Shown: piece after piece, positions 5,712 to 50,699 of the stretch
How the letters are laid out: every line of letters begins with the position of its first letter
How positions within the stretch are numbered: position 1 is the stretch's first letter
Assembly (NCBI GenBank): GCA_028820695.1
Contig: JAPPIB010000055.1
Coordinates: 1-64,000 of the forward strand
Length of the DNA: 64,000 bases
DNA from: Acidiferrobacterales bacterium
Lineage (GTDB): Bacteria; Pseudomonadota; Gammaproteobacteria; Arenicellales; JAJDZL01
Direction of reading: 5' to 3'
Notes under the pieces: model-generated
The model's input: only the letters and a program-made list of their open reading frames with translations
Told to the model about the DNA's origin: nothing
Databases searched by the model: none
Made by a program: the position numbers and the translations under genes

Positions 5712-8700
5712 CTCCGACCGATCCATCTGCTGCCCATCCCGATGCATTACGCGCAGCCATAGGTAATGCGAATCGGCTTGATGAATCGAACATAGTACAT
5801 AACCTTCAACGCCGCCGTATCCTATCCCCCGATCAAGGTGCGCTCGCGCGGAAGAATTCTTTCGAAATAGTGCGTTCTATCCGCTCGGAGAGGAAATTCG
5901 GTGCGGTGTCCAGGTTTCTCACCGAGTACGGTCTGTCCTCTGCCGAGGGGGTCAGACTGATGTGCCTGGCCGAAGCGCTGCTTAGAGTGCCGGATAACGC
6001 AACAATCGATACCTTGATCAGGGATCGGATCTGCGCAGGTGACTGGAAGTACCATATCGGGAAGTCGGATTCCGCCATAGTCAATTTGTCGACCAGAGCC
6101 CTTGAACTGACCGCGGCTATAGTTGATCAACACGGCCATTCAGAAACCGACGGAGCACTGAGGTCCAAACTGCAGAAGCTTGTGGTGCCTGCCGTTCGTT
6201 TATGCGCCACCCGCATCACCCGGTTCAGCGCGAGCCAGTTCATTCTGGGCACAACGATTCACAAAGCCCTGGCCCGCAGCAGCAAGCGGACACGCCAAGG
6301 CTACCGTTACTCGTATGACATGCTGGGAGAAGCTGCAATGACATCCAAAGACGCCCAGCGCTACAGGGATGCCTACAGCGAAGCGATCCGGCTTCTCTCA
6401 CGTCGTAGTCAGACCAGTGACATCAGGGACAATCCAGGAATTTCGGTCAAGCTCTCTGCACTGACCCCGAGATTCCAATGTTCCCAAAGCAGTCTCGTGC
6501 TGCAATCACTGACAGATTCAGTCCTGGAGCTTGTGCGTCTTGCCAAAGATGCGAATATGGGCCTGAACATTGATGCTGAGGAAGTGGATAAACTCGACCT
6601 GACATTGGATGTGATCGAACGGGTACTGCAAAGCGAGTTGTTGAAGGACTTCAACGGCTTCGGTGTGGTTGTACAGGCATACTGCTTGCACGCCAGTGAG
6701 ATGATCGAATGGTTGCATGCGCTCGCAGAACGGTACGACCGTCGAATCATGGTGCGGTTGGTCAAAGGTGCATACTGGGACACCGAAATCAAGCACGCCC
6801 AGGTTCTCGGAGTCGAATCGTTTCCTGTATTCACGAGAAAATGTTCCACTGACGTATCCTTTCTCGCCTGCGCAAAGCGACTGCTGGAACTGAACGATCG
6901 CATTTACCCGCAATTTGCGACGCACAACGTACATTCGATCTGCTCCATCATGGCGATGGTGGGAAAGCATCAGCGGTTCGAGTTCCAGCGACTGCACGGA
7001 ATGGGTGAGGAAATCCACCGGGTCGGGCGGAAACTGTTCCGCTATCCATGCAGAATCTACGCACCGGTCGGCGCACACGAGGATTTGCTTGCGTATCTGG
7101 TCAGAAGGATTCTCGAAAACGGTGTCAACAGTTCGTTTGTCAATCAGATTGCGGATTCAGGCGTTGCGATCGAGACGATCGTGTCCGACCCGACAGATGC
7201 TGTCAGCAAACTCGAACATGCCATTGTGAATCCGAGTATCGACCAACCATCACAGCTGTTCGCACCCGATCGAATCAACTCCAGGGGCATTGACTTGGAA
7301 AGACGTTCCGAACTCGAGGCGCTCTACGACGGAATATCGCGATTTTCAGAGGTCAGATGGAGTGCAAAGCCAGGTCTGTCGACCACATCGGCGGACAGTA
7401 CAGCAATACAAGCACGCAATCCTGCGCGCCCTGATGATGTTGTAGGCACGGTCATCGAGACGTCTATTGACTCGATAGGCGATCTCATCTTGCAGGCACG
7501 AAACGGATTTCAGTCGTGGCACGCTGCATTGGCCGCGACTCGGGCCGAGGCATTGAACAGGCTCGCCGATCTCTACGAAGCCAGCGCACATGAACTGATC
7601 GCTCTCATGATTCGAGAGACTGGCAAGACCGTTTCGGACAGCATCGCGGAATTGAGAGAAGCAGTCGATTTTTGCCGATATTACGCGAATGAGGCCATGC
7701 GGCTCGAAAGTATTGCAAGCAGTGATGCCAGAGGCATTATCGTCTGCATCTCGCCCTGGAACTTCCCACTGGCGATTTTCACGGGCCAGATAACAGCCGC
7801 TCTGGCAGCTGGCAACTCCGTGCTTGCAAAACCAGCCGAACAATCCGCACTTACAGCGTCTGTTGCGGTCGATCTGATGCATCAGGTCGGCATACCGGAA
7901 AATGTCATACAACTGGTGCCGGGGAATGGAGAGACGGTCGGTGCCGCACTCGTTGGCGACAGTCGGGTTGACGGAATCTGCTTCACCGGCTCAACACAAA
8001 CAGCCCGGCTGATATTGAAAACCATGACTGAAAGCGGAAACTCACAAGCCCCGTTCATTGCCGAGACCGGCGGGCTCAATGCAATGATCGTAGATTCCAC
8101 CGCGCTGCCTGAGCAGGCCGTACGCGACATCATTGCCTCGGCTTTCGCAAGTTGCGGACAACGCTGTTCGGCCCTGCGCATGCTCTATGTACAGAAGGAT
8201 ATTGCGGACCGCCTTCTTGACATGCTGTTTGGCGCAATGGATGAGTTGAGGGTCGGTGATCCCTGGTTTGTGTCGACCGATGTCGGACCAGCCATTGATG
8301 AGGAAGCTCAACAGGCGCTTCTGAGCTATTGCAAGTCCATGACTGACGCGGGACATCTTATGCATCAGACATCTATTGCGAAACAATCACCCGGGTCTTT
8401 CGTGCCCCCTACCGCATTTCGGGTATCAGGAATCGAACAGCTCGAGGATGAGGTGTTTGGTCCGATTCTGCACATCGCCACTTTCGATTCGGCTGACATT
8501 CCCATGATCCTGCAGTCCGTAAACGCCCGGGGATACGGACTTACATTTGGTCTGCATACCAGGATTGAGGAAAGAGCCGAGACAATTTCCACTAATGTGG
8601 ATGCTGGCAACATTTACGTCAACAGAAATCAGATCGGTGCAGTAGTCGGGTCACAGCCATTCGGTGGGCGGGGACTGTCCGGTACAGGGCCTAAGGCAGG

Positions 8701-42426: not shown

Positions 42427-42614
42427 AGCGACAGCTTGGTTGCGTAACAATGTGGAGTTCGAATGAAACCGGCACAGTCGGTTTCAATGAGGCAATAATA
42501 TACTACCCTTGCAGCTTGGCCAAATTGCGATTTTTCCGTCGGCAAGGTTGCCTGATCGCGTCAGGCAGTCCCAACTTATTGATTTTCTGTGTACGGCAAC
42601 TCCTCTGATTGGAC

Positions 42615-44975
42615 ATGGACAACCCGAAGAGAACACAACGTGTCGAAGATTTAAGCCTCATTGTCGGACAGGGCAGTTTCGTCGATGATCTGCACGCGAA
42701 GGCACTTGGTGTCGGACATGTCGTACGGTCTTCGTATCCGCATGCTGAGATCTTGAATATCGATGTGGAAGTTGCAAGAGCCCTGCCAGGCGTTCAGCTG
42801 GTGGTGACTGCGGCCGATCTCGATGACGCGGGCTACGGCGATCTGCCCTGCGTCTCAAACCTCACCAACCGCGACGACAGCCCGATGTACAAACCCCCAC
42901 GGCCGGTTCTTGCACGGGACCGGCTGCGTTATGTCGGCGAACCAATCGCTTTCGTAGTTGCCGATACCATGCACGAAGCATTGGAAGCAGCGGAGTTGAT
43001 CGAGGTGGATGTGCGCGAACTTCCAGGCGCCTCAAGTACTGAAAAGGCCCTGCGCGCCGAAACCAGCATATGGGAGGGGGCGCCAGACAACGTCTGTTTT
43101 GACTCAAGCCACGGTTCAGAACAGAAAACCGAACAGTTGCTGGAACAGGCTGAACACGTGGTGTCGATCGAGGTGCATCATCCGAGGATGTCGGTCACCC
43201 CGATTGAACCTCGGGCGGCACTGGCCGAATATGATGCCGCGGGCGGTCACTACACGCTTCATGTCCAGACCCAGGGTGTGCACATGGTACGACGGGTACT
43301 GGCAACAGACGTCATGAAAATTCCGCTGCACAGCCTCAGGGTGATCACCCGCGATGTGGGCGGCAGTTTCGGCATGAAGATTTTTCCCTATCCGGAATAT
43401 GCACTGGTTCTCTATGCGGCCAAAAAGCTCGGCCGGCCTGTGAAGTGGACTGCGACAAGATCGGAGTCGTTCGTATCAGATGCCCACGGTCGGGCAAGAA
43501 TCGATCGCGCGCGACTGGGACTGGACGCGGAAGGAAAGTTTCTCGCAATTCAGATCGATGCTGAAGCCGATCTTGGAGCGAGTCTTTCGTATGTCGGTCC
43601 TTCGATCGCAGGCCAATATGCGTATACAGTCATGGGGCACAACTACAAGTTCGAGTCAGTGAACTATCGTTGCAAGGGCGTGTTTACCAACGCGACTCCC
43701 ACCGATGCGTATCGCGGTGCCGGCAAACCGGAGACGATATCCACGGTTGAACAACTGATCGACAAGGCGGCGATCGAACTGGGGATGGACCGTATCGAGC
43801 TTCGACGAAATAACTTTGTTCAGCCCGACGAGCTGCCGTATTTGATGCATAACGGTCAGGTGATCGACAGTGGGAACTTCAGCGCCCTGCTCGACCTTGC
43901 GCTGGAAAAGTCCGATTGGCATGGTTTTCTCAAGCGACGCAAGAATGCGTCCCAACGCGGCGTGTTGCGCGGCATAGGACTCGGCATGTATATGCATTCC
44001 ACCGGCGGCTCGAAAGACGAGACGGGCGAGGTCAGACTTTGCCGAGATGGCACGGTTCGTGTCACGACAGGTACGCAATCCGCAGGTCAGGGGCATCAGA
44101 CCGCGCTTGCGTCATTGGTGGCAGAAGCATTGCAGATTGATCTTTCGCGCATCGAGGTGGTACAGGGCGACACCGATGAGATTTTTTCAGGCGGCGGTAC
44201 CGGCGGCTCCTCGATGGTTGCGATTGCCGGAGTCACGGTTAGCAAAGCAGCAACCAAGATGCTGGAACAAGCTTGTGAAGCGGCTTCGCACCTGCTTGAG
44301 GTTTCGACAGCAGATATTGATTATGACCGCGGCGAATTCGTCATTGCAGGAACAGACCGTCGCGCAAGTCTGGTTGACATTGCACGGTTCATCGAAGAGT
44401 CTGGAGACGATCACCCCGGCTGCGTGGGATCGGAATCATTCGAGGGTACCAATACCACTCATCCATGCGGTGCCTATGTAGTCGAGATCGAATGCGATCC
44501 GGATACGGGCGTTGTCAGGATCATTCAGGCCGTCGGTGTGGACGACATCGGACGAATTCTGATGCCGGCAATCGCGGACGGCCAGCTCCACGGATCATGG
44601 GCCCAGTCGATCGGAACATCACTGATGGAGTGCATGCAGTATGATGAGGATGAGGAAGGACAAGTGCTTTCAGGCTCCCTGATGGACTATCAGCTGCCGC
44701 GGGCGGCGGATCTGCCGTTTTTCACGCTTGAGAAGAGCGCGACATTGTGCCGGACCAATCCGCTGGGCGTCAAAGGCGTGGGTGAGGTGGCAAGTCTCGG
44801 GGCGCCGGGTGCGTTGGACAATGCGATTTCAGACCTGCTTGGCAACGGTCTGGAGTTTGTATCGCTGGCCGGTCCCGCAACACCCCAGAGAGTCTGGCGG
44901 GTGATCCGGGAAATTACCTCACGGCAGCATCCAGGTGATCATTCACTGTTATCGCGGGCGACACGTCCGAGATAA
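42615..44975 (+). CDS. Molybdenum hydroxylase large subunit (xanthine dehydrogenase/CoxL family), solitary
   Basis: The protein of about 786 residues is the molybdopterin-cytosine-dinucleotide-binding large subunit of the xanthine dehydrogenase family. It has the opening RVEDLSLIVGQGSFVDD, PIEPRAALAEYD, GGSFGMK, GQGHQTALA and the catalytic Glu in GVKGVGEVASLG. It has TDAYRGAGKPE where CO dehydrogenase has AYxCSFR, so it is not a form I CO dehydrogenase. The usual FAD (medium) and 2Fe-2S (small) subunit genes are not next to it. They may be elsewhere. The ATG at 42615 is preferred over TTG 42609. The 3' end overlaps the convergent isomerase by 37 bases. Confidence 0.85.
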   Translation: MDNPKRTQRVEDLSLIVGQGSFVDDLHAKALGVGHVVRSSYPHAEILNIDVEVARALPGVQLVVTAADLDDAGYGDLPCVSNLTNRDDSPMYKPPRPVLARDRLRYVGEPIAFVVADTMHEALEAAELIEVDVRELPGASSTEKALRAETSIWEGAPDNVCFDSSHGSEQKTEQLLEQAEHVVSIEVHHPRMSVTPIEPRAALAEYDAAGGHYTLHVQTQGVHMVRRVLATDVMKIPLHSLRVITRDVGGSFGMKIFPYPEYALVLYAAKKLGRPVKWTATRSESFVSDAHGRARIDRARLGLDAEGKFLAIQIDAEADLGASLSYVGPSIAGQYAYTVMGHNYKFESVNYRCKGVFTNATPTDAYRGAGKPETISTVEQLIDKAAIELGMDRIELRRNNFVQPDELPYLMHNGQVIDSGNFSALLDLALEKSDWHGFLKRRKNASQRGVLRGIGLGMYMHSTGGSKDETGEVRLCRDGTVRVTTGTQSAGQGHQTALASLVAEALQIDLSRIEVVQGDTDEIFSGGGTGGSSMVAIAGVTVSKAATKMLEQACEAASHLLEVSTADIDYDRGEFVIAGTDRRASLVDIARFIEESGDDHPGCVGSESFEGTNTTHPCGAYVVEIECDPDTGVVRIIQAVGVDDIGRILMPAIADGQLHGSWAQSIGTSLMECMQYDEDEEGQVLSGSLMDYQLPRAADLPFFTLEKSATLCRTNPLGVKGVGEVASLGAPGALDNAISDLLGNGLEFVSLAGPATPQRVWRVIREITSRQHPGDHSLLSRATRPR

Positions 44976-45532
44976 CCGCCGTGATGGCGCTGTCCATACT
45001 GTTGTCGGGTGATGCCCTTGAGTTCCATCAGGGCCAGCGTGATCGCATCGGCGATCGCATTCATGACGGCGATGCTCGATGATGGCGTCAGGCCCAGCGG
45101 ACACGGCTCTACGATAGCGCCCATTTCAAGTATCACATCGCTGTGACCTCGAAGTTGAGAGTCCGCATGGGAAGTGATGCCGATCACCTTGCCCAGACCC
45201 AGGTGCCTGGCCAGTTGCAGCATTTCGATGACCTCGCGGGTTTTCCCGCTATTGGAAAAGGCGACGATGCAGTCCCCGTCGGCAATTACACCGAGATCGC
45301 CGTGTGCGGCCTCGCCTGGATGAAGATATACGGCTGGCGTGCCAGTTGAACAAAGTGTGACGGCAAACTTGTTTGCTATGATTCCCGCCTTGCCCATTCC
45401 GGTTGTCAGCACCTTGCCCTCACAAGCATGCAACAGATGAACTGCCGTCTCGTAGTGTGACGATACCTCGATGGACTGAATGGCTGATGCCTCAGCGTCC
45501 AGGACGTATCGTATTCGTTGCATGACATCCAT
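44939..45532 (-). CDS. SIS-domain sugar isomerase, KdsD-like, lacking CBS domains
   Basis: The 197-residue protein matches the SIS domain of arabinose-5-phosphate isomerase: TGMGKAGIIANKFA, LHPGEAAHGDLGVI, AFSNSGKTREV, and a closing HHGGYLGR. KdsD/KpsF proteins normally continue with two CBS domains (about 320 residues in all); here the frame stops just after GGYLGR. The stop lies inside the convergent molybdenum hydroxylase gene, with a 37-base overlap. It could make arabinose 5-phosphate for Kdo as some short SIS-only isomerases do, or be a truncated copy. Confidence 0.78.
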   Translation of the reverse strand: MDVMQRIRYVLDAEASAIQSIEVSSHYETAVHLLHACEGKVLTTGMGKAGIIANKFAVTLCSTGTPAVYLHPGEAAHGDLGVIADGDCIVAFSNSGKTREVIEMLQLARHLGLGKVIGITSHADSQLRGHSDVILEMGAIVEPCPLGLTPSSSIAVMNAIADAITLALMELKGITRQQYGQRHHGGYLGRVARDNSE

Positions 45533-45742: not shown

Positions 45743-48406
45743 TCAGAAATGCAGCGAAATATCCCGGTGGTGAGACAGACATGTGGCGACCGATTTGGCC
45801 AGCGCGAGCGGCAAGCGTCGTTGCATGCGAACACCAATGCTTTCGCTGATCTCGTCACGGTAGGCACTCAGCGGCTCCATCAACTCGGAACTTGCCTGCT
45901 GGCGCCAGTTGAGTTCTTCCAGATAGAGTTCCTTCGCAATCGCGACCTGGGCAAGCGCCTTGTCCCGGTCCGGATTGTCGCCTTTAAGCGCGCGCCTGGC
46001 TTTTGACAGCGCTGACTTGATGTGGCTGACACCTTCAAGCTCGGACAATTCGCTTTCCCGCGCCTTGATCATTTCCATTGCGTCAATTGCAGTTTCCCGC
46101 TTGACAATCTGTTCGACACTGTTGACAACCTCGGCGGCCTGTTCCAAGGCACCAACCTGCGTCAGCAGGGTGTGAAGGTGCCCGATTGGTTCGTACGACG
46201 CATCGGCGCCGCGGCGATACTGGCCGCGGGCAATCTTGTCTGCCTTGGCCAGCTCCTTATATTGATCGTGGCGTGATTGCCAGGTGTCCGAAAGGTTCAT
46301 TTTGAGTTCAGCCACTTGCGCTTCCAGTTCCTGAATGTGTTGTTCAAGCTTGATGATCTCTTCCTGGGATGGAGCGCCTTGACGCTGGAACCGATCCAGT
46401 AAATTGAGTTCGTCTTCAAGTTGGTCTTCCAGCCTGCGCAGGAACCGCTCTTCACGCCGATATTGTTGGTGTTCCGATCTGAACCCTTCGGAATACTCTT
46501 CAAGTGCGGCTGCGGCCAGCTGGCTTCGTTCAACATTTTCAAACACGGATGTCGCTTCGTCAAAACTGCTCGTAACCTTGTCCCGCAAGTCTTCCGGCAG
46601 CATGGAATAGTCAACACCGCGCATATCGTTGATCAAGGCGGTCAGCGACTGACGGTTGTTCACATAATACGGAAACAGATCCTCTTCCATGCAATACTGT
46701 AACTTTGGATTGACCGGGGGCGGCGCGGTCTCTGCGGTGAGATGCGTTCTATTTGGCATGTAGTTGACCAGGCTTGGAAAGTAACCGGCAATCGCGAGGC
46801 CCAACAGCTGAAGACCGATGAACGCCACGGCACCCTTGTATATATGCGTCGTCTTGACCGTGCGCGGCGCGACGCCGCGCAAGTAAAACAAGGCGAAGCC
46901 GAAAGGAGGTGTTAAAAACGACGTCTGGATATTGAGCCCAACCATCACCCCCAGCCAGACCGCCGTGATGTTGGCCGCCGGGTCGGAAAGCAGGATGGGT
47001 GCTACGATCGGAACGACGACCACTGCGATTTCAATGAAGTCAAGGAAGAATCCGAGCAGAAAAATGACCAGCATCACGACCAGGAACTGGGTCCAGAACC
47101 CGCCTGGCAGACCGGTCAGGAAGTGGCGTACAAGCTCCTCACCGCCAAATGCCCTGAAAGCCGATGTCAGCATCGCTGCACCGATCAGAATGATGAATAC
47201 CATCGACGTGGTCTTGGCAGTATCCACCATGACACTGACCAGTGTATTGTTCATCGTGTATGCGCGCCACACGCTCCAAACGAGTGCCGCCACAAACACC
47301 GCTACGGCTACGCCGGCGATGAGCACAGCCATCAGTTCCGCTTGGCTGTGGATGCTTTTGATGTTGAGTTTAAAAAACTGCAGCAGAACAACGATGACGG
47401 CAATCGACAATACGGCCATGATGGTCGGAGTAAATTGATGGCGATGTCCCTGGGTCAGCCGGTACCCGCCCATGATAATTGCACCCACGGCACCGATGGC
47501 ACCTGCCTGGTTGACAGTTGCAACGCCTAGAATGATCGATCCCAGAACCACAAAGATCAGTGACAGGGGCGGTATAAGTGACAACGCTATGCCCGTCGCG
47601 AATTTCATGTCATATTTACCGTCATAAGGGACGGGTGGCGCGGTTTTTGGTTTCAGCAGGGCAACGATCAGGATGTAGAGCATATAGAGACTGACCAGGA
47701 TAAGGCCTGGAATCAGGGCGCCCATGAACATGTCGCCGGCGCTGGCGGAGGTAATATCCAGCTCTGTCGGCAGCGAGAACTCCCCGGTCAGTTCCTTGTA
47801 ATTCGCCTTGCGTGTGGTGCTGGCCTGATCCGCAGCATTGGACAACTGGTCGGCGAGAATGATCAGCACAATAGACGGCGGTATGATTTGCCCGAGTGTA
47901 CCTGATGCGCAGATCGTGCCTGTAGCCAGTGGCCTGGAGTAGTTGTTTCGCAGCATTGCAGGCAGTGAAATCAGACCCATGGCGATCACCGTGGCACCGA
48001 GAATACCGGTGGTTGCGGCCAGCAATGCGCCTACAAATACGACGGAGATTCCGAGTCCGCCGGGAATCGGGCCGAAAAGGCGCGCCATGGAGACCAACAA
48101 GTCTTCGGCGATGCGCGAACGTTCCAGCATGATGCCCATAAAGACGAACAGCGGAATAGCAATCAGCGTGTCTCGCTCCACCTCCCAGTACAGGCTTCTA
48201 AAGTTGGTAATACCGGCGGTGAGCCATTGGGTTGGCCCATCCTGAGCGAAGTATGCAGAAGGATCGTCGGCAAAGAAATACCCCGAGACAGCTGCAAGTG
48301 AAATTGTGAATATGGCCGAGCCTGGCAGCGCGAATGCAACCGGAAAGCCGGAGCTCAGCGCGACGATCATCACAAGAATCAGAATGCACAGGAAAACCAG
48401 TTCCAT
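45743..48406 (-). CDS. TRAP transporter large permease (DctM) with long C-terminal coiled-coil extension
   Basis: The large permease of a tripartite periplasmic carboxylate-type importer drives uptake with the sodium or proton gradient. Residues 1-550 are the multi-helix DctM domain (SGFPVAF, GTICASGTLGQIIPPS, GLNIQTSFLTPPFGFALFYL); the usual DctM is about 430 residues, and this one has an extended middle. Residues about 551-887 are not membrane-spanning and contain long heptad-like stretches (about 640-710 and 770-845). No known domain was recognised there. It follows the small permease gene by 3 bases. The extension could tie the permease to a cytoplasmic or periplasmic partner. Confidence 0.85.
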   Translation of the reverse strand: MELVFLCILILVMIVALSSGFPVAFALPGSAIFTISLAAVSGYFFADDPSAYFAQDGPTQWLTAGITNFRSLYWEVERDTLIAIPLFVFMGIMLERSRIAEDLLVSMARLFGPIPGGLGISVVFVGALLAATTGILGATVIAMGLISLPAMLRNNYSRPLATGTICASGTLGQIIPPSIVLIILADQLSNAADQASTTRKANYKELTGEFSLPTELDITSASAGDMFMGALIPGLILVSLYMLYILIVALLKPKTAPPVPYDGKYDMKFATGIALSLIPPLSLIFVVLGSIILGVATVNQAGAIGAVGAIIMGGYRLTQGHRHQFTPTIMAVLSIAVIVVLLQFFKLNIKSIHSQAELMAVLIAGVAVAVFVAALVWSVWRAYTMNNTLVSVMVDTAKTTSMVFIILIGAAMLTSAFRAFGGEELVRHFLTGLPGGFWTQFLVVMLVIFLLGFFLDFIEIAVVVVPIVAPILLSDPAANITAVWLGVMVGLNIQTSFLTPPFGFALFYLRGVAPRTVKTTHIYKGAVAFIGLQLLGLAIAGYFPSLVNYMPNRTHLTAETAPPPVNPKLQYCMEEDLFPYYVNNRQSLTALINDMRGVDYSMLPEDLRDKVTSSFDEATSVFENVERSQLAAAALEEYSEGFRSEHQQYRREERFLRRLEDQLEDELNLLDRFQRQGAPSQEEIIKLEQHIQELEAQVAELKMNLSDTWQSRHDQYKELAKADKIARGQYRRGADASYEPIGHLHTLLTQVGALEQAAEVVNSVEQIVKRETAIDAMEMIKARESELSELEGVSHIKSALSKARRALKGDNPDRDKALAQVAIAKELYLEELNWRQQASSELMEPLSAYRDEISESIGVRMQRRLPLALAKSVATCLSHHRDISLHF

Positions 48407-49607: not shown

Positions 49608-50699
49608 TTAGACTCCGGTGACCCGATTGCGTTGACTCAGGTACTCCTGATCAGCAATTTTTTGCCAGCCACCGATATCGGACCGTGCACGCAGGAAGCT
49701 TTCATGAACTCGTCGGGCGAGGTCACTGTGTTCCACAGTTTCCGCAAACACCTCTTCTGCAGCTTCGCCGAAAGAGTCGTAGATGTCGTCGTTGAACTTG
49801 CGCAACTCTACACCCTGCTCATTGACCAGTTTCGTCAGAGATGCGCCGTTATTGGCGTTGAACTCGGCCATCATCACATCATTTTCCATTGATGCGGCTG
49901 CGTCAATCATGGTTTTATCGGATTTGGAGAGACTTTCCCAAAAATCCTTGTTGATGCCAGCGGCCAACATGGAGCCCGGCTCATGCATACCAGGATAATA
50001 GTAGTATTTGGCTGCTTCATAGAACTTCATCGCTGCATCATTCCATGGCCCGACCCACTCGGTGGCGTCAATTGCACCGGAAATCAGGTTTTCGTAGATT
50101 TGGCCACCGGGCAACGAGACCGGCGAGGCACCGAGTTTCGCCAAAACGTCCCCACCAAGACCCGGAATACGCATTTTGAGACCCTTGAAGTCATCAGCGC
50201 TTTCCATCTCCTTTCGGAACCAACCGCCCATTTGCACGCCGGTATTTCCGCACATCAGATTCTTCAGGCCGTATTCTCCAGCCAGTTCGTCCCATAGTTC
50301 CTGCCCACCCCCAAATCGGATCCAGGCATTCATCTCGGTATAAGTCAACCCGAATGGAACCGCTGTGAAATACGCCCATGCAGGGTGTTTACCTTTCCAG
50401 TAGTAGTCCGCGGCGTGATAAATCTGTGCGTTGCCGGAGGCTACCTCGTCAAAAGAGTCAAAGGCACCCACACGTTCCCCGGCGGAGAAATAATCAACTT
50501 GAAATCTGCCATCACTGATGTCAATCAGCCGTTGGGCAAATCTTTGCGCGCCAGTACCGAGACCCGGGAAGTCTCTGGCCCACGTAGATACGACAACAAT
50601 TGAGACTCGCTCCTGCGCAATTGCAGGTGCGGCCAGTGTGGAGACACCTGCAGCAGCGGCAGCAAGCGCACTGCCTTTCAATAAATCACGGCGTTTCAT
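49608..50699 (-). CDS. TRAP transporter substrate-binding protein (DctP, TakP-like)
   Basis: The 363-residue protein opens with a Tat-like signal (MKRRDLLKGSALAAAA, then APAIAQ cleavage near residue 28). The mature part has the DctP/TakP pattern with FRKEMESADDFKGLKMR and GGQIYENLISGAIDATEW. TakP-type proteins bind 2-oxo acids or related carboxylates. AGGAGG precedes the ATG by about 8 bases. The gene is first in the transport operon. Confidence 0.9.
   Translation of the reverse strand: MKRRDLLKGSALAAAAAGVSTLAAPAIAQERVSIVVVSTWARDFPGLGTGAQRFAQRLIDISDGRFQVDYFSAGERVGAFDSFDEVASGNAQIYHAADYYWKGKHPAWAYFTAVPFGLTYTEMNAWIRFGGGQELWDELAGEYGLKNLMCGNTGVQMGGWFRKEMESADDFKGLKMRIPGLGGDVLAKLGASPVSLPGGQIYENLISGAIDATEWVGPWNDAAMKFYEAAKYYYYPGMHEPGSMLAAGINKDFWESLSKSDKTMIDAAASMENDVMMAEFNANNGASLTKLVNEQGVELRKFNDDIYDSFGEAAEEVFAETVEHSDLARRVHESFLRARSDIGGWQKIADQEYLSQRNRVTGV

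Follow-up and report, generated by a model that had tools for sequence, protein, structure and literature searches.

The locus analysed here raises the question of what the large permease of a tripartite ATP-independent periplasmic (TRAP) transporter does with a long soluble tail behind its membrane domain. It lies in a stretch of 64,000 nucleotides from an Acidiferrobacterales bacterium (GenBank assembly GCA_028820695.1, contig JAPPIB010000055.1, positions 1 to 64,000), hereafter called the window, in which a DctM protein of 887 residues is encoded in an operon with a DctQ small permease and a DctP substrate-binding protein (SBP). A sequence-only reading of the region had proposed that this DctM is fused to a C-terminal extension. 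The fusion is real: the membrane core extends to residue 561, the tail comprises 326 residues, and it was matched in 80 of 80 loci kept from a genome scan. We found that the tail is a fixed part of one DctP-type TRAP subfamily, which occurs in many proteobacteria. This is a real architectural variant, undescribed in the literature searched, in which a tail predicted to be periplasmic goes together with an extension of its own on DctQ.

The boundary between core and tail was set by structure comparison. The Pfam DctM model (PF06808) recognised the protein with 210.6 bits against a cut-off of 23.8, in three stretches, the best at residues 11-186; the cut-off of the NCBIfam dctM subfamily TIGR00786 was narrowly missed (256.6 versus 268.45 bits). 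According to VIA-align, the predicted model covers the whole M domain of the TRAP/DASS elevator fold, and all 427 residues of PpSiaM (7qha_B) were placed on model residues 6-561 (Z 33.0, root-mean-square deviation 3.0, 21% identity). Because the whole of PpSiaM is set on these residues, the membrane part ends at about residue 561, and the tail is therefore residues 562-887 (window positions 45746-46723). The span given to it in the sequence-only reading, 45743-47396, has to be corrected, since it corresponds to residues ~337-887 and takes in a part of the membrane domain. The solved TRAP permeases HiSiaQM, PpSiaQM and IseQM resemble the window system in their superposing membrane core and in an operon with DctQ and DctP. 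They differ from it in that the window protein has two more transmembrane (TM) helices in the core besides its 326-residue tail, and the identity is 20-24%.

The distribution of the tail was determined in several genome sets. A scan of genome contigs with the full-length query confirmed at least 575 relatives among 596 candidates, and the best 80 were taken; the tail was matched in all of them, three being cut by contig ends. As the full-length query biases these best 80 towards tailed proteins, a less biased search with the core alone was made in 385 genomes of one class (the class of genome G280), with at most three candidates scored per genome. It gave 111 matches in 105 genomes. Thirty-three matches, in 32 genomes, were 58-74% identical to the query. 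Of these, 32 are part of open frames measuring 838-960 aa, whereas a contig end truncates the 33rd, in G404. The other 78 were at most 53% identical, and no frame among them exceeded 737 aa. All 12 tailless frames longer than 620 aa end 3-5 residues past the core, which agrees with the earlier remark that usual DctM proteins end after the membrane domain. When the same 385 genomes were searched with a tail profile (at most five candidates scored per genome), exactly the 32 close-core proteins were matched, in 31 genomes and with E values of 1.8e-26 or better, so that the tail is present in about 8% of this class-wide sample; none of the 78 more distant core matches had a credible tail match. 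Four weak matches elsewhere (E 1e-4 to 6e-4) covered the helical middle only, and none was at a listed core match. A search of 398 genomes from the phylum with this profile yielded eight strong matches in seven genomes, in frames of 885-903 aa with a core, and two weak ones (E 2.9e-5 and 8.9e-5) to the helical middle in frames of 309 and 372 aa. The idea of the tail as a stand-alone protein was rejected, as all eight strong matches are in frames confirmed to hold the core. Among 72,556 plasmid records, none matched the tail alone at E<=1e-5.

Within the subfamily the tail is less conserved in sequence than the core, and its length is nearly constant. Mean pairwise identity among 78 aligned proteins (the window and 77 loci) was 73% for the core and 38% for the tail. 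In 77 of them, the stretch from residue 546 onwards was 330-345 aa long. A tree of the core was built from 14 tailless rows and 34 tailed ones, the latter comprising the window, every third of the 80 loci minus one short one, and seven others. All tailed rows stand on one side of a branch with support of 100/100, which every one of the 200 bootstrap trees contained. Seven end branches, of which six are tailless and one is tailed, were flagged as long in this tree, with a warning that long branches meet. A tailed operon was also observed in a record titled Mesoflavibacter, Bacteroidota (CP051228.1), the core of which groups with Alphaproteobacteria on the tree; the record is either mislabelled or the operon was transferred.

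The sequence-only reading had proposed a search with the tail alone, which was run against Pfam, NCBIfam and the folds of the PDB without a confident match. In Pfam and NCBIfam, only sub-threshold helical matches were obtained, and no model covers the tail. The best Foldseek match in the PDB had an E value of 0.19, with none at or below 0.001, and the best VIA-align superposition (Z 10.4 over 92 residues) is in a range common for generic helical bundles. Sequence-profile matches to PDB entries, of coiled-coil type and similar helical ones with a best E of 0.002, were discounted as composition. Fold searches with the whole model were uninformative on the tail, because their list was filled by core matches. 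The earlier reading had named a common and already characterised tail as what would speak against it. The tail is common, as a fixed part of its subfamily, but neither a family model nor a description of it was found in the databases and the open-access literature searched.

The structure predicted by AlphaFold2 (AF2) for the tail is all-alpha. In the whole protein (mean predicted local distance difference test, pLDDT, 81.3; tail blocks of ten residues range from 71 to 94), long helices occupy residues 605-675, 709-749 and 814-853. The tail modelled alone reached a pLDDT of 91.2 and a predicted template modelling score of 0.80, with eleven helices, and its last eight residues (327-334 of the isolated tail) fell below 50. 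The coiled coils expected from the letters are hence only loosely apt: long helices are predicted, within a confident helical domain. The absence of membrane segments was confirmed, the best 19-residue hydropathy mean being 0.71 (residues 565-887), below TM level.

Two conserved motifs frame this domain, each with one invariant cysteine (Table 1). Cys572 and Cys876 are present in 78 of the 78 aligned proteins, and there is no further recurrent cysteine in the tail. When 80 tails from the list of 87 loci were examined by motif, 79 had exactly these two; the remaining one (L027) has both and three more, which lie past the point where it leaves the family frame. Four tails with an SPPP variant of the start motif also have exactly two cysteines each. 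With three cut tails set aside, 83 of 84 complete tails thus have exactly two. As the pair is invariant, with one member near each end of the tail, we moderately favour a Cys572-Cys876 disulfide that would tie the tail end to its root. Conservation is high at the very end of the tail, where S884 and F887 are invariant. One protein (L168, G470:C167) has 245 residues after the core instead of 334; its middle is shortened, and both cysteines and a variant C-terminal motif are kept. From this case, the ends of the tail seem to matter more than its middle.

On which side of the membrane the tail lies can be deduced from the known topology. Two structural papers state that the M domain of HiSiaQM consists of TM2-11 and two hairpins (PMC9352664) and that the periplasm is where M begins (PMC5812351). 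With ten crossings, the DctM C-terminus is then brought back to the periplasm, and the insertion in the window core retains this topology because it adds an even number of TM helices (two). A natural M-P fusion, in which the binding protein is joined to M, is known from Acidaminococcus intestini (G4Q5D7; PMC9352664). The loop that precedes the last TM helix has on average 2.05 Lys and Arg residues, against 1.01 behind this helix, only these two places having been weighed by charge. Parity with the solved TRAP structures thus strongly indicates that the tail is on the periplasmic side of the inner membrane.

The DctQ of the operon was also described as oversized in the sequence-only reading, and this holds, as the Pfam domain covers a minor part of it (Table 1). 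In the tailed loci, 86 DctQ open frames were found, of 319-426 aa except for two cut ones; these frames run from stop to stop, so that the lengths are upper bounds. In the window, the 180 residues before the DctQ domain contain four hydrophobic segments; of 73 tailed operons, 62 likewise have four there and the other 11 have three or five. In the window, the periplasmic loops of this extension are predicted at about residues 40-68 and 136-162. A profile of the extension, trained on the window and 73 tailed operons, matched all three tailed DctQ tested with E values of 8.1e-45 or better, one of which (L147) was outside the training set. It recognised none of 22 tailless DctQ (best 0.0049). Judged by this profile, the extension is a sequence family that goes with the tail and is confined to tailed systems in our sample. 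A tailless locus, L134 (G016:C1), has a DctQ frame at ~5771-8300 with three upstream hydrophobic segments, the first and second of which are separated by a long, charged and helix-like stretch. Here the same need may have been answered in another way, with soluble helices on Q and not on M.

P, Q and M are all complete in 73 of the 87 tailed loci; of the other 14, 13 are at a contig end and L147 lacks a match to P. The covariation of divergence was measured in the window and these 73 complete operons, with the core and the fast columns of core, SBP and DctQ as controls. A first mirror-tree run could have been a rate artefact, and the analysis was redone with fast-column controls, cubic terms and thinning. 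The controlled correlation between tail and DctQ-extension distances was 0.347 (reached in none of 1000 permutations) and 0.368 (none of 500). For the parts of the extension, the tail gave 0.316 with the periplasmic loops (56 columns), 0.240 with the TM segments (87) and 0.148 with the cytoplasmic part (37), and the order was unchanged after thinning to 38 operons (0.301, 0.252 and 0.105). The SBP gave 0.263, 0.131 and 0.089 with the same parts. We consider it moderately supported that the tail is close to the loops of the DctQ extension.

The SBP is of the TakP kind. According to the report on TakP (PMC1839085), pyruvate and the cation are bound by Arg177, Tyr100, Glu214, Glu240, Gln156 and the carbonyl of Trp215. 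These six residues are conserved in the alignment of the window SBP, which reaches TakP residue 352 of 365 and stops short of the end of the swapped C-terminal helix (326-365; same source). The window system thus resembles TakPQM, the 2-oxoacid TRAP transporter of Rhodobacter sphaeroides (TakP 2hzk/2hzl), in its binding-protein family and in the pyruvate and cation residues, and because of this likeness its substrate is probably a 2-oxoacid such as pyruvate. It differs from the family at large: relatives of the SBP at E<=1e-40 were found in 167 of the 398 genomes, 160 of which are without the tail and only seven with it. Genomes with an SBP at least 59% identical to that of the window are exactly the seven tailed ones, the next best SBP being 53% identical. 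In nine other SBP-bearing genomes of this set, the DctM cores are 42-48% identical to that of the window and have no tail match. A TakP-like SBP as a sufficient reason for the tail was rejected, as the same SBP family is present in tailless relatives.

The explanation that we favour, with our confidence evenly divided for and against it, is that the periplasmic tail and the DctQ extension brace the QM complex and dock the TakP-like binding protein. The tail would leave the membrane at the normal DctM end, on the periplasmic side, and its long helices would fold into an all-alpha body that the Cys572-Cys876 disulfide probably closes. It would act together with the extra DctQ TM helices and their periplasmic loops, both enlarging the fixed (stator) side of the transporter. 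The resulting platform would dock and retain the 2-oxoacid binding protein, which is probably dimeric, while the DctM elevator moves. Docking of the binding protein is weakly to moderately supported, the claw of TAXI permeases discussed below being a precedent. Among the three roles guessed in the sequence-only reading (regulation, clustering, binding of a partner), the last is the best supported. Several observations weigh against this explanation. Once the DctQ extension is controlled for, no clear direct covariation between tail and SBP is left (r 0.053, reached in 139 of 1000 permutations), which makes the tail-SBP contact the weakest step. The two TM helices inserted in the core covary as well (0.183 with the tail, 0.244 with the DctQ extension, 0.154 with the SBP); the compared parts of the extension are unequal in size; and the last 52 tail residues show no covariation. 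Covariation of this kind is shared divergence and not contact. In addition, tailless relatives share the SBP family, and L147 (G280:C4:26000-41680) is a tailed QM pair without a match to the window SBP in the examined stretch. Finally, five of the 22 tailless DctQ (L101, L134, L137, L140 and L167, read as stop-to-stop frames) have one to three other upstream hydrophobic segments, so that such segments as a whole are not confined to tailed systems.

The same data bear on the alternatives. If the tail were only an assembly brace, packing on the DctQ extension and stabilising QM by stator enlargement without contact to the SBP, it would covary with the extension and not independently with the SBP, as is seen, and the extension would be recognised solely beside the tail, as it is. 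We still regard this as unlikely, though possible, since the periplasmic DctQ loops covary with the SBP too (0.26) and, judging from the tripartite models described in PMC9352664, a periplasmic body of more than 300 residues over the docking face would be hard to keep clear of the binding protein. A more specific form of the docking idea is doubtful; in it, a periplasmic cradle made of tail and DctQ extension and closed by the disulfide would hold a dimeric SBP on the transporter, one protomer feeding the elevator while the other loads. An envelope tether, reaching across the periplasm to another envelope component and binding it through the conserved C-terminal peptide, is improbable. The high conservation of the terminal residues and their low confidence in the isolated tail are what a partner-binding peptide might show, and the spacing of I, L and the terminal F in H-R-D-I-S-L-x-F (45746-45769, reverse strand) presumably recalls the C-terminal signal of outer-membrane proteins. 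However, P, Q and M have no constant neighbour gene that could encode such a partner, the last block is more confident in the full-length model (74), hinting at a contact within DctM, and the short tail of L168, with a shortened middle and both ends kept, would be odd for a spanning arm. Least probable is the cytoplasmic regulatory or clustering tail of the sequence-only reading. Helical, charged tails without a membrane segment of their own, as this one is, regulate other transporters. The evidence for the periplasm disfavours this role here: parity with the solved M domains and the M-P fusion set the C-terminus outside, and the charge bias of the last loop and the invariant cysteine pair, with no other recurrent cysteine, point the same way.

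Table 1. Positions of the transporter features in the window
Feature	Position	Strand	Basis
TRAP large permease DctM, open reading frame	45743-48406	-	887 aa
DctM membrane core, residues 1-561	46724..48406	-	Pfam DctM 4.7e-62; Z 33 to PpSiaM and IseQM
Two extra TM helices (residues 326-344, 355-384) between the DctM repeats	47255..47431	-	phmmer gap 314-392 versus 9pym; AF2 helices; hydropathy
Tail behind the core (residues 562-887), predicted to be all-alpha and periplasmic	45746..46723	-	AF2 pLDDT 91; subfamily conservation; no confident Pfam or NCBIfam match
Tail start motif APPP-x-NP-x-LQ-x-C, residues 561-572, with invariant Cys572	46691..46726	-	Alignment; SPPP variant in 4 loci
Tail end motif C-x3-H-R-D-I-S-L-x-F, residues 876-887, with invariant Cys876	45746..45781	-	Alignment
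Oversized DctQ small permease, 350 aa	48410..49462	-	Pfam DctQ on residues 196-326 only
DctQ N-terminal extension (residues 1-180) with about four additional TM helices	48923..49462	-	Hydropathy; extension profile; covariation with tail
DctP substrate-binding protein of TakP kind, 363 aa, with signal like that for twin-arginine translocation	49608..50699	-	phmmer 1.5e-71 to TakP 2hzk; ligand and cation residues conserved

The gene neighbourhood gave no further partner. When 1749 flanking open reading frames from the tailed loci were clustered, the commonest family was present in 20 of 87 loci, and no constant neighbour beyond P, Q and M was found. An assignment of substrate or function from neighbours was rejected, as the common flanking families were read as housekeeping-like (parC-like, bioY-like) and some resembled antisense frames. 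In L147, the tailed DctQ-DctM pair lies ~1.3 kb downstream of a tailless DctQ-DctM pair, which is likewise without an adjacent match to the window SBP. In the window itself, an open reading frame at 44939-45532 (reverse strand) encodes a KdsD/KpsF-like protein of 197 aa with the SIS domain only, the matching full-length family models having 268-328 positions; it overlaps the end of a convergent open reading frame at 42609-44975.

Extra domains on TRAP permeases are known from other branches of the family. By Davies et al. 2024 (PMC11574862), the claw of TAXI permeases (DUF3394, PF11874; VcGluQM) is described as mainly beta, placed between TM helices on a fused QM protein, and the claw-bearing extension as unreported in DctP-type TRAPs. 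Claw and tail are alike in being C-terminal permease additions with a soluble domain, placed in the periplasm and predicted to dock the SBP, and in occurring in only part of their family. In contrast to the claw, the tail is predicted to be all-alpha, is terminal and is carried by an unfused DctP-type M, and PF11874 gave no match to the large permease at E<=1. By these comparisons, the tail is unrelated to the TAXI claw and would hold an analogous place on a DctP-type permease. The same genome encodes, at L006 (G000:C8:27424-29028), a fused TRAP permease of 874 aa with a DUF3394 claw at residues 682-869 (E 3.1e-53), and by this domain it is assigned to the TAXI type. One genome thus has two unrelated C-terminal additions to TRAP permeases. 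The A. intestini fusion is similar in having an extra domain on M, but what is added to M in that case is the binding protein; the DctP model (PF03480) matched neither the 887-aa protein nor the tail alone.

The hand-over of cargo by TRAP binding proteins is still under study. If the cradle existed, it would turn a diffusive binding-protein cycle into a retained one, and the membrane-bound TakP dimer modelled in 2007 would gain its holder, at least in the tailed subfamily. The subfamily is a natural experiment in this respect, as its members carry a large domain, predicted to be periplasmic, and an addition of their own on DctQ. It offers a testable extra role for the poorly understood Q subunit, and the tail is a removable part with which it can be tested whether docking of the SBP limits TRAP transport.

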